Shown here: positions 4,817 to 35,153 of the stretch, in pieces
Layout of the letters: the number at the start of each line of letters is the position of its first letter
How positions within the stretch are numbered: position 1 is the stretch's first letter
Assembly (NCBI RefSeq): GCF_934424005.1
Contig: NZ_CAKRXI010000031.1
Coordinates: 1 to 36,216 of the forward strand
Reading direction: 5' to 3'
Length of the DNA: 36,216 nt
Origin: an uncultured Blautia sp.
GTDB taxonomy: Bacteria; Bacillota; Clostridia; Lachnospirales; Lachnospiraceae
Made by a program: the position numbers and the translations under genes
The notes under the pieces: generated by a model
Seen by the model: only the letters and a program-made list of their open reading frames with translations
Databases searched by the model: none
What the model was told of the DNA's origin: nothing

Positions 4817-5722
4817 TTAATCTAATTTAATGTTTGCAAAAAGTGATCCCAGAGAAGTCGTTGCCTGCTCTCCTGCATCTGGCACTTCGTAAATCTCTTC
4901 TTCGATTTCCTTTGCCATCATATCTGTTGCTTCTTTTATGCTGAGACTGATTTTGCCATCTTTGATCGCAGTAACTTTGACCTTTACAGTATCTCCCACT
5001 GCCAGAACCTCTGATGGTTTCTTGATCCTTTTTTCACAGATCTGCGAAATGTGAACCAGTCCGGAAAGTCCATTTCCAAGATTTACAAATGCCCCATATG
5101 GCTGAAGACTCTCTACCGTTCCTTCTGTTACAAGACCGATCTCCAGGTTTGAAACTTTGTTTTTTCTTTCTTCTTCCGCTTTTTCTCTGAGAATTTCTTT
5201 GGCGGAAAGAATCAGTTTCTTACTTTCTTTGTCTACATCCAGCACCTGTACCTGAATCGGTTTATTCAGATATTCTTCTGTGTCCTCCACATAATTCAGT
5301 GCAAGTTTGGATGCTGGAATAAATCCCCTTACGCCTTCCACGTACGCGATAACACCGGCATTTGTGATTCCTTTTACTACAACATCCAGCACTTCACCGG
5401 ATTCTTTCAGTTCTTTTAATTTATCCCATGCCAGTACGTCTACTGCCTCAACTCTGGAAAGAAGAATATTTCCCTGTCCATCGTCTTTTCTTACAACTGT
5501 TGCAGAAACTTCATCTCCTTCATGTACTTCATCCTTCAGGCTGAATCCCGGTTCTCTGCTGTAGTTTTCTGCCGGAATCACGCCCTCTGCATAATATTTC
5601 AGATCAAGGATTACTTCTTTTTCATCTACACTGATTACAGTTCCTGTAAGAATATCGCCTTCTTCTATTGTTTTCATAGATTCTTCCAGTTCTTTTTCAT
5701 AATCTTTCATTGATTCAGCCAT
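4817..5722 (-). CDS. S1 RNA-binding domain protein (ribosomal protein S1-like)
   Basis: The 301-residue protein contains three S1-type OB-fold repeats, at roughly residues 20-90, 105-175 and 193-263. The last is the most typical (GTVESLQPYGAFVNLGNGLSGLVHISQI). Proteins of this family bind single-stranded RNA; the Firmicute versions are shorter than the six-domain proteobacterial S1 and their role in translation is variable. An acidic N-terminal helix (MAESMKDYEKELEESMKTIEE) precedes the first repeat. It is the first gene of the unit S1-pyrophosphatase-flavin reductase and has an extended -10 promoter upstream. Whether it is ribosome-bound or a free RNA-binding factor cannot be told from sequence. 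Confidence 0.88.
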   Translation of the reverse strand: MAESMKDYEKELEESMKTIEEGDILTGTVISVDEKEVILDLKYYAEGVIPAENYSREPGFSLKDEVHEGDEVSATVVRKDDGQGNILLSRVEAVDVLAWDKLKELKESGEVLDVVVKGITNAGVIAYVEGVRGFIPASKLALNYVEDTEEYLNKPIQVQVLDVDKESKKLILSAKEILREKAEEERKNKVSNLEIGLVTEGTVESLQPYGAFVNLGNGLSGLVHISQICEKRIKKPSEVLAVGDTVKVKVTAIKDGKISLSIKEATDMMAKEIEEEIYEVPDAGEQATTSLGSLFANIKLD

Positions 5723-5800: not shown

Positions 5801-5862
5801 TGCATTTCCTTCAATACATTCTTTTGTACCTGGTATCATAATTATATTATAACCTATAAAAT

Positions 5863-5887
5863 AAAAAAAGCCCCAAAATAGGGGCTT
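5863..5887 (-). terminator. Rho-independent terminator of the candidate sRNA
   Basis: On the minus strand AAGCCCC and GGGGCTT pair around TATTTT, followed by a run of seven T and then ATTTTAT. This is a textbook intrinsic terminator. Confidence 0.88.
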
Positions 5888-5994
5888 ATAAACGAGGAGT
5901 GCCCCGGCAGTGGTTTACCGGGGCGATTATTATGAAAAAATTTATGTGTAATGAAGAACATTACAACGTCTGTTTTGTGTAGCTCTTTCGAACT
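5863..5994 (-). ncRNA. Candidate small RNA of about 130 nt with four stem-loops
   Basis: Between a regulated-looking promoter (6001-6044) and a strong terminator (5863-5887) the minus strand encodes no plausible protein. It folds readily into separate hairpins. The 5' stem AGTTC/GAGCT closes a GAAA tetraloop (5981-5994). TGTAATG/CATTACA closes a 5-base loop (5947-5965). GCCCCGG/CCGGGGC forms the third (5901-5924), followed by the terminator hairpin. The single-stranded linker between the third hairpin and the terminator contains ACUCCUCGUU. Its UCCUC is complementary to Shine-Dalgarno sequences, a common seed in trans-acting sRNAs. It resembles no RNA family I recognise. It could instead be a 3' untranslated region of the upstream secreted-protein gene, but it has its own promoter. 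Confidence 0.55.
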
Positions 5995-6000
5995 ATCCCT

Positions 6001-6044
6001 ATAGTACCAGTTAATTATGAACATAGTATGAACAAGTCATGAAC
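6001..6044 (-). promoter_or_regulatory. Activator-type promoter with three 11-bp-spaced direct repeats
   Basis: On the minus strand GTTCAT occurs three times at exactly 11-base steps (complement ATGAAC at 6017-6022, 6028-6033 and 6039-6044). Downstream is an extended -10, TGGTACTAT (6001-6009 complement). The repeats occupy the -35 region and upstream, and no good -35 hexamer is present. Direct repeats with 11-bp period overlapping -35 are the usual layout for OmpR/PhoB-family response regulators. Which regulator acts here is not known from the window. Confidence 0.6.
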
Positions 6045-6170
6045 CTTTCGTGTATTTGCACAATTTTTCTGTTTTCCATCCTCGTTTTTTATAGAAATGT
6101 AACATATAATTTTTTCTGTATTTTTTGCTCGTTGTATATTTTATACATTGTGCATATAACGGAACTCTTC

Positions 6171-6635
6171 TTAGTTCAGAAATTCTTTTACAAGATTGAC
6201 AAGTTTGCCAAGAATTCCCTTCACATCTTCTTTCGTAATTCCAAGGCTTTCCAGTTTGTCATATACTTTGTTTACCTGAGATCTCAGTTCATTCTCATCC
6301 AGATCCATATTTTTGAATTTATTGTACAGCTGAATTAATGTGGATTTGTCAGAATCAGAAAGAGTTACTCCTAATTCTCCAGCGGCAACATCCAGCGCAC
6401 TGCTGATCTGATCATCTGTTACATCTACTGTTCCCAGAGTTTCTTTGGCAGCGATAATAAGATCTACCACTTTATCCGGATCTGATAACAGGTCATCTAC
6501 TCCACTCTGCTCCAGAAGTTCTACTGCCTGATCTACAGCAGCATCCGTTGTCTGATCTGCATAAACCATGGCAGGTGCGGTACATGTAAGAGCTCCTGCA
6601 AGAATAAATGCGCTTAATCTGTTTATTTTCATCAT
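6171..6635 (-). CDS. Small secreted protein, DUF1002-like C-terminal region
   Basis: The start is placed at the ATG at 6635 because AGGAGG lies 8 bases before it. A longer frame would start upstream and overlap the promoter. The 154-residue product has a Sec signal peptide (residues 1 to about 26, cleavage near VYA-DQ), then an all-helical acidic domain rich in Asp, Leu and Val. The tail, with KFKNMDLDENELRSQVNKVYDKLESLG and KLVNLVKEFLN, resembles the C-terminal part of DUF1002 proteins, which are predicted secreted Firmicute proteins of unknown function. At half the usual DUF1002 length it may be a stand-alone version of that domain. It is monocistronic: an extended -10 promoter lies upstream, and no strong hairpin follows directly. 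I can name no activity. Confidence 0.75.
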   Translation of the reverse strand: MMKINRLSAFILAGALTCTAPAMVYADQTTDAAVDQAVELLEQSGVDDLLSDPDKVVDLIIAAKETLGTVDVTDDQISSALDVAAGELGVTLSDSDKSTLIQLYNKFKNMDLDENELRSQVNKVYDKLESLGITKEDVKGILGKLVNLVKEFLN

Positions 6636-6690
6636 TTTAATTACCTCCTGAATAAATACAATTACATTTTCTATCAATGATACGAACTGC

Positions 6691-6699
6691 ATTATAACA
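6691..6699 (-). promoter_or_regulatory. Extended -10 promoter of the small secreted protein gene
   Basis: The complement reads TGTTATAAT, a consensus extended -10 sited about 56 bases upstream of the start codon. A possible TTTACA lies 20 bases further upstream, too far to be a normal -35. Confidence 0.5.
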
Positions 6700-33336: not shown

Positions 33337-33418
33337 AAATATGTAAAAGAAAAACATAATAAAAGACAGGCAATGAAAGAGAATAAATTCTTTGCAGAAA
33401 CCTTTAGAATGGAGGAAT

Positions 33419-34507
33419 ATGGGATATTTTCAGGATATGGGACTACTGTTTATATATAGTCTGATAGTCCTTTTATGGAAAGAACCTGACAGGACGCTGA
33501 TTTTTGCGATTCTCTGGGCGGTAATCCTGATTTGCGGAATCTATTTCATACATGGAAAAAGTACAAAAGTTTTGGTTTGTACAGTATTTGCTTTAATGGC
33601 ACTTGTAGTGCCTGAAATAGAAATGTTTTATCCGATTCTGATATATGCACTGATAAAAGAAATAAACTGGCAGATGGGACTGGCCATAAGTATGGCAGGG
33701 GTAATTCTGCTGGGGAAATATGGGGATATGCACATAGAAATAATGGCAAAATATGTGGTTGGATGTCTGCTTGCGGCTATATTGGAAAGAAAAACTCATA
33801 AGTACGATAAAATGGACATTGAATTACGCAAAACTGTGGATTCAGGAGAAGAAAAAGCACTTCTTTTGTCAGAAAAAAATAAGGCGCTGGCAGAAAAACA
33901 GAATTCCGAAATTTATGCAGCAACGCTTCGTGAAAGAAATCGAATTGCAAGAGAAATCCATGATAATGTGGGACATGTGCTGTCTAGAACGATTCTGCTA
34001 ACCGGGGCCGCCAGAGCCATAAATAAGGATCAGAATCTGGATAGTCTTTTAAAAGGGCTGGATAATTCACTTAATTCTGCCATGGATAGTATCCGCTCAA
34101 GTGTGCATGATCTTCATGATGATGCAGTGAATCTTCAAGAAACAATAAAGGGGATTATAACGGACATAAAGATAGAAAATGTAGAATTTGAATACGATAT
34201 GTCCGAAATAATACCCAGAGAAATAAAATATTGTTTTATCAGCATTGTAAAAGAAGCTATATCGAATGCTATGAAATATAGTTCTGCGACACAGATTAAA
34301 ATTATTATGAGAGAGCATCCGGCAATATATCAGCTATGCATTGAGGATAATGGAAAAGGCTGCGCAGATTATGACAAAAATACAACAGGAATCGGATTGA
34401 AAAATATGCAGGAACGTGTAAATACATTGAATGGAAATCTCCAGATCAATGGCGAAAAAGGATTCCGTATTTTTGTTGTGATTCCGAAACAAAATAGAGC
34501 AGAATAG
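33419..34507 (+). CDS. NarL-type sensor histidine kinase (HisKA_3)
   Basis: The start is taken as the ATG at 33419 after GGAGG, although the 3-base spacing is short; a TTG at 33392 is an alternative. The 362-residue protein has about five membrane segments in the first 125 residues with very short loops, as in intramembrane-sensing kinases. A coiled linker follows, then the HisKA_3 dimerisation helix with the phosphorylated His181 in REIHDNVGH, and an ATPase domain with the N-box KEAISNAMKYS, EDNGKG and TGIGLKNMQER. It probably senses envelope stress or the exporter's substrate, and it partners with the regulator 25 bases downstream. Confidence 0.9.
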   Translation: MGYFQDMGLLFIYSLIVLLWKEPDRTLIFAILWAVILICGIYFIHGKSTKVLVCTVFALMALVVPEIEMFYPILIYALIKEINWQMGLAISMAGVILLGKYGDMHIEIMAKYVVGCLLAAILERKTHKYDKMDIELRKTVDSGEEKALLLSEKNKALAEKQNSEIYAATLRERNRIAREIHDNVGHVLSRTILLTGAARAINKDQNLDSLLKGLDNSLNSAMDSIRSSVHDLHDDAVNLQETIKGIITDIKIENVEFEYDMSEIIPREIKYCFISIVKEAISNAMKYSSATQIKIIMREHPAIYQLCIEDNGKGCADYDKNTTGIGLKNMQERVNTLNGNLQINGEKGFRIFVVIPKQNRAE

Positions 34508-34532
34508 CAGAAAAAATGAGGATTTACAGGAA

Positions 34533-35153
34533 ATGAAAATAGTGATAGTAGATGATGACTGCCTGGTTACAGAGGCTTTGAAAACAATCCTTGAAGTGAA
34601 TGAAGACGTACAGGTGCTGGCAACAGGGTCCGATGGCAGAGATGCGGTATGCCTGTATGCAGAATATAAGCCAGATGTCTTGTTAATGGATATTCGAATG
34701 AAGAATATGAATGGACTCGAGGCTTCGGCTGAAATATTAAAGGCAGAACCAAAGGCTAATATATTGCTTCTTACAACGTTCCTTGATGATGAATATATTG
34801 TGAAAGCGTTACGCCTGGGAGCAAAAGGGTATCTGCTGAAACAGGATTATGCAAGCATTTTGCCGGCATTGAGAGCAGTGTATTCCGGGCAAACTGTATT
34901 TGGACAGGAAATTGTATCTAAAATACCGGATTTGATCCAAAAGAAGGAAAAGTTTGATTATAGTGCCTGTGAAATTAATGAAAGAGAAAAGGAAATCATC
35001 CGTCTGGTTGCAAATGGATACAGTAATAGGGAAATTGCTGCGGAAATGTACCTGGGAGAAGGTACGGTGAGAAATTATCTGAGCTCAATTCTGGATAAAT
35101 TGCAGCTCCGCGACCGTACACAAGTAGCTGTTTTTTACTATAAGCACCGTTGA
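34533..35153 (+). CDS. NarL/FixJ-family response regulator
   Basis: The 206-residue protein has a receiver domain with the acidic pocket DDD (7-9), the phosphorylated Asp53 in LLMDIRM, Thr80-81 and the conserved Lys in GYLLKQD. A LuxR-type helix-turn-helix follows (INEREKEIIRLVANGYSNREIAAEMYLGEGTVRNYLSSIL). It is coupled to the sensor kinase. The likely targets are its own operon and the divergent ABC exporter, through the sites at 33214-33307. Confidence 0.93.
   Translation: MKIVIVDDDCLVTEALKTILEVNEDVQVLATGSDGRDAVCLYAEYKPDVLLMDIRMKNMNGLEASAEILKAEPKANILLLTTFLDDEYIVKALRLGAKGYLLKQDYASILPALRAVYSGQTVFGQEIVSKIPDLIQKKEKFDYSACEINEREKEIIRLVANGYSNREIAAEMYLGEGTVRNYLSSILDKLQLRDRTQVAVFYYKHR

Follow-up and report, generated by a model that had tools for sequence, protein, structure and literature searches.

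A conserved small RNA of gut Lachnospiraceae with a predicted response-regulator promoter and a possible role in envelope stress

Results

Architecture of the locus

The window, the whole stretch of 36,216 nucleotides from an uncultured Blautia sp. that was analysed, holds on its minus strand a feature (6044-5861) flanked by the gene of a DUF1002 protein (6171-6692), the start of which resembles a signal peptide, and by an S1-domain gene (4817-5722). Its parts are as follows.

6054..6063, minus strand: conserved upstream element TTGTGCAAAT, near-invariant in aligned Blautia-like copies, 9 bp upstream of the first GTTCAT repeat
6044-6039, 6033-6028 and 6022-6017, minus strand: three GTTCAT repeats at exact 11-bp steps, read in the sequence and conserved
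6009-6001, minus strand: extended -10, TGG-TACTAT; TGNTA...T is retained in most relatives read
5861..5996, minus strand: small RNA (sRNA) gene with a transcript of ~130 nt, from fold and conservation; predicted start near 5996-5994, both ends predicted
5994-5981, minus strand: hairpin 1, AGUUC GAAA GAGCU (GAAA loop), from fold and alignment; variable outside Blautia
5965-5947, minus strand: hairpin 2, UGUAAUG...CAUUACA, from fold and alignment
5943-5926, minus strand: arm A, unpaired AAAUUUUUUCAUAAUAAU, the core of which, UUUUUUCAUAAU, is complementary to AUUAUGAAAAAA (start codon, Lys-Lys)
5924-5901, minus strand: hairpin 3, GCCCCGG...CCGGGGC, which covaries
5894..5901, minus strand: arm B, CACUCCUC, complementary to GAGGAGUG (Shine-Dalgarno GAGGAG(UG)), with UCCUC inside it at 5898-5894
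5861..5887, minus strand: intrinsic terminator in the window copy, a stem at 5887-5868 with a T run behind it, from a terminator scan

The first-pass annotation had proposed a regulated, trans-acting sRNA at this site, an interpretation that is partly supported as a whole. The three GTTCAT repeats that it described at 11-bp steps (6044-6017, minus strand) are there, as are the extended -10 and the GAAA hairpin with two further hairpins. The 136-nt RNA is predicted to fold with -46.2 kcal/mol, compared with -24.2 for shuffled sequences (z -6.3), and none of 200 shuffles was as good. In the window copy, arm A (UUUUUUCAU) is unpaired in both the centroid and the minimum-energy fold. In the centroid, the first C of arm B closes hairpin 3 and the rest of the arm is unpaired. 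The minimum-energy fold has 5971-5967 paired with the last C of arm B and the GUUU next to it, and in one relative UCCUC may be hidden by a downstream GGAGGA.

The repeats (6017..6044) overlap the -35 region and are likely to form the site of an OmpR-type response regulator. A consensus scan returned no -35/-10 pair at the sRNA promoter; a consensus -35 is expected to be missing where an activator overlaps the -35 region, as would be the case here. Within the window, GTTCATN5GTTCAT occurs in only two exact copies, both at the sRNA promoter, and in five further matches with 2 mismatches; the total of 7 matches (≤2 mismatches) is close to the 6.7 found in shuffles, a figure that is not specific to the exact copies. 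When TTGTGCAAAT was searched as part of a longer pattern (≤2 mismatches), the sRNA locus alone was returned, with 0-1 mismatch, in 5/5 Blautia genomes, and the element ranks among the best-conserved stretches of the Blautia promoter. No Rfam family exceeded its gathering score at the sRNA region, where only sub-threshold matches with E up to 5 were seen, and no published description of the sRNA was found by title in the open-licence literature on small RNAs of Blautia and Lachnospiraceae.

Conservation and covariation of the RNA

Scanning genomes with the neighbouring S1 protein returned 69 loci, and BLAST of the sRNA region matched in 29 of them. The alignment comprised the window and 28 of these loci, without L022, where the match was short and on the opposite strand. 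The sRNA lies upstream of the S1 gene in 25 of the 28 loci (S1 identity 74 to 95%, many of them named Blautia) and downstream of it in the other three, Robinsoniella included. A covariance model built from the window and 27 loci (L026 was left out) gave 95 matches at E≤0.01 in 89 of the 299 genomes of the family of G001, taken as Lachnospiraceae, a lower bound owing to strict search filters. A single match was found in 83 of these 89 genomes, and the weak matches gain support from the promoter pattern described below, ten sites of which precede matches ranked 61st or lower. By sequence, the sRNA is thus conserved, mostly as a single copy, across many gut Lachnospiraceae related to Blautia. Lack of conservation of the hairpins and repeats in relatives, which had been named as evidence against an sRNA, was looked for, and what we found was an RNA that is conserved in relatives.

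Among the best 29 model matches besides that of G001 itself, the 5' half drifts; UUUUUUCAUAAU, the GC hairpin and GGCACUCCUC stay. Both UUUUUUCAUAAU (arm A) and GGCACUCCUC (arm B) are present in 56/56 copies (not counting L099 and L108, which we regarded as repeats of L019 and L025), a figure that is partly selected because BLAST or the covariance model had served to find the copies. Three further copies that were found through their promoter (L186, L189 and L193) all contain CUCCUC, and arm A is exact in L189, nearly so in L193 and lost in L186. The first reading had singled out UCCUC as the seed, and this element is indeed conserved and complementary to ribosome binding sites, but the seed looks bipartite, with arm A as well as arm B, and the most conserved part of the RNA, AAAUUUUUUCAUAAUAAU at 5943-5926, had been overlooked.

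Covariation across Lachnospiraceae had been suggested as a check, and hairpin 3 does covary: pairs 4-9 occur as different pair types across 33 distinct versions of the hairpin, and each of these pairs is preserved in 31-33 versions. Ten of 60 rows did not fit the text pattern and were left out, and L186 was not among the rows; 33 versions is a lower count, since some of the rows left out carry further variants (e.g. L014, L023, L105). The description of about 130 bases without a plausible frame agrees with the finding that no reading frame is conserved across the copies: in 53 copies the frame that opens at the first ATG is anywhere from 1 to ~61 codons long, with some frames continuing beyond the stretch, and 3/56 lack an ATG. 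The strong terminator that had been described is present in the window copy, but neither its sequence nor its position is conserved in relatives; a terminator-like hairpin follows CUCCUC in 22/56 copies, compared with 1.2 expected from shuffles.

An HtrA-like gene has the same promoter layout

The pattern TTCAYN6TTCAYN7TGNTATNNT occurs at 94 sites in 82/299 genomes, compared with 3 sites for the reversed pattern, and half of the 94 (47) have a same-strand model match immediately 3' of them. We fetched all 47 sites that do not precede a model match and read their downstream genes: six were HtrA-like genes, three were the missed sRNA copies L186, L189 and L193, 11 belonged to a second motif, six stood before other response regulators, and 21 were mixed, inside genes or unreadable. 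With a tighter pattern, searched in 34 sRNA-bearing genomes, 41 sites turned up in 29 of them, compared with 1 for the control; 23 of these sites belong to the sRNA, 15 to the HtrA-like gene and 3 to others (30 loci and one more were read individually, and 10 were placed by coordinates). One of the three others, L241, lies near a contig end, on a contig with the regulator gene described below. Counted from the genes, two TTCAY 11 bp apart were found upstream of 15/26 HtrA-like genes (16/26 with a looser form; no shuffle control) and of 0/4 other HtrA-family matches, and a recognisable motif was absent upstream of 10/26. The exact form GTTCAYN5GTTCAY was found at seven sites in 3 genomes, three of them at the sRNA; of the other four, L071 lies in a sugar-uptake region, L072 and L076 precede what we take to be sequences resembling the CIRCE element, and L075 has no evident role.

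The second direct-repeat motif, TTCATATGAAATTCATATGG, stands before a response regulator and/or ABC transporter gene at L176-L180, L382, L387, L393 and L399, and was set aside as the motif of a different response regulator associated with an ABC transporter.

The HtrA-like proteins contain trypsin-like and PDZ domains (Pfam PF13365, PF13180) in 3/3 scanned. The catalytic His and the GNSGG motif are absent from the 23 HtrA-like sequences read (17 loci and 6 of the query) and kept in 3 paralogues; this reading leaves out ten of the 30 loci, for which the ORF obtained was a neighbouring or different one (mutS2-like in 7). HtrA-like PDZ genes without catalytic residues are represented by loci L196-L221.

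In 16 of the 17 genomes examined, three of which are Blautia (G003, G004, G005), the HtrA-like gene stands next to mutS2, behind which come genes for a response regulator and a histidine kinase; the exception is G001, in which HtrA-like gene and regulator lie ~35 kb apart. Because of this neighbourhood, the mutS2-linked pair is likely to be the cognate system, and we regard it as the likely candidate regulator of both the sRNA and the HtrA-like gene. The one pair scanned (G107) is of OmpR/HisKA type: the regulator combines a receiver with a Trans_reg_C domain, and its highest scores are those of the MtrA and YycF models; the kinase scores highest with WalK and PnpS, then PhoR and MtrB, in all cases below cut-offs. 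The HtrA-like gene and the regulator are known from genomes of relatives and not from the window's own organism; the two closest relatives, G003 and G001 (S1 identity 95 and 93%), have both. Across the family the regulator is present in 252/299 genomes, that is in 85/89 sRNA-positive genomes and 167/210 others (counted by eye; Fisher p 2.4e-4). This co-occurrence was set aside as support, as incomplete genomes could cause it, and since genomes in which no sRNA was detected can have the regulator as well, the link between regulator and sRNA is drawn by motif and neighbourhood.

Like the conservation and covariation of the RNA, the gene neighbourhood and the complementarity of the arms, the common promoter layout is read directly in the genomes. 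The sRNA and the HtrA-like gene seem to be switched on together by one two-component system. Conservation lends good support to the response-regulator-type promoter that had been claimed, and envelope stress, also put forward earlier, is supported by the layout common to the sRNA and an HtrA-like gene adjoining a kinase/regulator pair.

Two arms complementary to translation start signals

Arm A lies 5' and arm B 3' of hairpin 3, an arrangement that in antiparallel order corresponds to a Shine-Dalgarno sequence, then a start codon and Lys codons; the proposed ability of the RNA to pair with ribosome binding sites is well supported by conservation. The target pattern GAGGAGN{2,13}TTATGAAAAA was found at 18 sites in 5 Blautia genomes, compared with 0 for controls, and at 86 sites in 28 non-Blautia genomes, compared with 6. 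All 104 sites were read, and 94 have a frame of ≥60 codons. By simple rules, 51/77 of the non-Blautia products look exported and 39/77 contain a lipobox; in background samples of two genomes 42/332 and 50/357 were exported, with 6 lipoboxes in each. Of the Blautia products, 8/17 were exported and 0 had a lipobox. Recurrent groups, named by eye except for lysA and alanine racemase, were solute-binding lipoproteins, lysA-like genes (6), aminotransferases (4) and alanine racemase (2). The enrichment of exported products is partly explained by the fact that ATGAAAAA starts are common among exported genes (taken alone, 8/12 and 7/13 were exported in the two genome samples), which is both the point and the weakness of the hypothesis.

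An unselected test used 332 and 357 predicted genes of two genomes, with gene calls and export flags from a simple script. Exported genes paired better with both arms together (p 0.0023 and 3.5e-5), and the preference of arm A for exported genes was such that 0/60 shuffles reached the difference in either genome. Arm B was only mildly special, with 8/60 and 5/60 shuffles as good, and arm A more so (1/60 and 3/60). The 12 best-pairing genes per sample included 1 exported gene in G107 and 5 in G001, one of these likely a misflagged dehydrogenase. As the best-pairing genes are mostly not exported, and given the ATGAAAAA bias, the exported-target class is a lead and not a result; the match of the arms to start signals of exported proteins suggests that the sRNA would restrain protein export when the envelope is under stress.

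A possible co-change of seed and targets was set aside. A C precedes GAGGAG at 6/18 Blautia sites and 6/86 others, and the seed reads CUCCUCG in Blautia and CUCCUCA elsewhere, but some of the sites are lysA orthologues and the background is shifted likewise (4/25 genes in G001 compared with 0/21 in G107).

Discussion

We consider it somewhat probable that the locus encodes a trans-acting envelope-stress sRNA that covers the translation starts of exported proteins and is co-activated with the HtrA-like gene. What follows is our inference as to which pair is cognate, which stress induces the system, in which direction control runs, which mRNAs are targets and that these are repressed. The MtrA/YycF-like response regulator and the kinase encoded after mutS2 would act as the sensor system; the regulator would bind TTCATA repeats at 11-bp steps and thereby activate two kinds of promoter, that of the HtrA-like pseudoprotease gene and that of the sRNA. 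The sRNA would then pair with mRNAs through arm B at the Shine-Dalgarno sequence and through arm A at the start codon and the Lys codons behind it, with hairpin 3 bulging out between the paired arms. Synthesis of exported proteins would fall, as predicted from the frequency of AUGAAAAAA at signal-peptide and lipoprotein starts, while the HtrA-like protein would handle envelope damage. A more sweeping form of the proposal, to which we hold only tentatively, is a general anti-secretome RNA: its arms would match the generic start of exported mRNAs (Shine-Dalgarno and AUGAAAAAA), and together with the HtrA-like pseudoprotease it would form a minimal envelope-stress regulon of gut Lachnospiraceae under the mutS2-linked two-component system.

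A narrower regulator, acting on one or a few metabolic genes and above all on the lysA-like gene of Blautia (diaminopimelate decarboxylase), appears unlikely to us. In that reading diaminopimelate would be saved for cell-wall use, and the arms would match exported proteins only by coincidence. The target pattern does match the lysA-like gene in 4/5 Blautia genomes, AAACGAGGAGU and AAUUAUUAUGAAAAAA of the lysA-like gene in L138 match both arms with one base between them, and the lysA starts of G002 and G268 keep TTATTATGAAAAAA. These matches are nevertheless orthologues and not independent, the lysA-like protein, with 267 bits over the 400 residues scored, stays below the lysA cut-off of 297.9, and ATTATGAAAAAA was seen at only 6 of 30 lysA starts read, 3 of them in Blautia-like genomes, although the sRNA copies that were read retain arm A. 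Outside Blautia, the starts read did not bear out lysA as a family-wide target. More doubtful still is the idea that the conserved arms serve as a protein-binding site (for an RNA chaperone or a ribosomal factor) or mimic the 16S rRNA tail in place of pairing with mRNA. Strict invariance of the arms would suit it, a U run and an anti-Shine-Dalgarno sequence could be decoys for a protein or the ribosome, and csRNAs are reported, in the part of that paper cited here, to have a conserved stretch suspected of protein binding (PMC3091779); yet arm A is the complement of AUG and Lys codons and arm B that of a Shine-Dalgarno sequence, in the order of a single duplex, and shuffled arm A does not give the preference for exported genes.

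Two further readings are very improbable. A phosphate-starvation sRNA under PhoB/PhoP, the other stress put forward by the first-pass annotation, would fit the 11-bp repeats, which the PhoB family uses. The search for further promoters of this kind, advised especially upstream of pst genes, led instead to the HtrA-like gene, and no phosphate gene was recognised among the genes read behind the promoter motif. The PstS-like genes (below the family cut-off) of 5 Blautia genomes (L083-L087) have, by eye, upstream TTTTAC-type 11-bp repeats, not GTTCAT, and this difference argues against phosphate; TTTTAC-type repeats are a possible PHO box of the Blautia group. There is equally little to recommend a small-protein gene or an untranslated leader of the neighbour. 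The S1-domain gene does lie downstream in the window and in Blautia-like loci, but frames from the first ATG are not conserved, the sRNA is placed elsewhere in Robinsoniella and two others, and the window copy ends in a terminator.

The envelope-stress sRNA that we propose looks to be built like the CiaR csRNAs of streptococci. As described in the parts of the reports cited here, csRNA promoters consist of two hexamers 11 bp apart (TTTAAG-N5-TTTAAG), the RNAs carry unpaired anti-Shine-Dalgarno and anti-start-codon sequences, and htrA is in the regulon (PMC8186281, PMC3091779, PMC11034029). To that extent the Lachnospiraceae sRNA is similar, with its 11-bp hexamer spacing in a response-regulator-type promoter and its unpaired anti-Shine-Dalgarno and anti-AUG sequences in predicted folds. 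Its box, in contrast, is GTTCAT/TTCATA and not TTTAAG, a single match is the rule (83/89 genomes), a conserved hairpin splits the arms, the HtrA-like gene with the same promoter layout encodes no catalytic residues, and the linked regulator fits MtrA/YycF models best, below cut-offs, with no CiaR model among the best 25 of 100. We do not claim csRNA membership, as the box differs, the linked regulator is at most a possible CiaR orthologue, the RNA is mostly single-copy and a hairpin lies between the arms. In logic, the proposed lowering of exported-protein synthesis by an envelope-stress sRNA recalls MicA and RybB of Salmonella and E. coli, sRNAs made under the envelope-stress regulator sigma-E that lower envelope-protein synthesis, according to the part of the report cited (PMC1804206); the likeness is one of logic, and these depend on a sigma factor, belong to Gram-negative bacteria and act on outer membrane protein mRNAs. 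The product of the putatively co-regulated gene resembles HtrA/DegP proteases in its trypsin-like and PDZ domains, but unlike them it is without the catalytic His and GNSGG. If the proposal is true, very common gut bacteria would respond to envelope stress through an sRNA; the system would comprise a candidate sensor and a small regulon, its seed may address a protein class rather than single genes, and it would combine a build like that of streptococcal csRNAs with a logic like that of enterobacterial sigma-E sRNAs.

Elsewhere in the window, frames resembling a sensor kinase and a LuxR/NarL-like response regulator lie beside ABC transporter frames at 33392-35153 (by eye), with no link to the GTTCAT promoter seen. 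Two known RNA families scored above their gathering scores, both on the minus strand: Clostridiales-1 RNA (RF01699) at 28-197 and a SAM riboswitch (RF00162) at 249-351.
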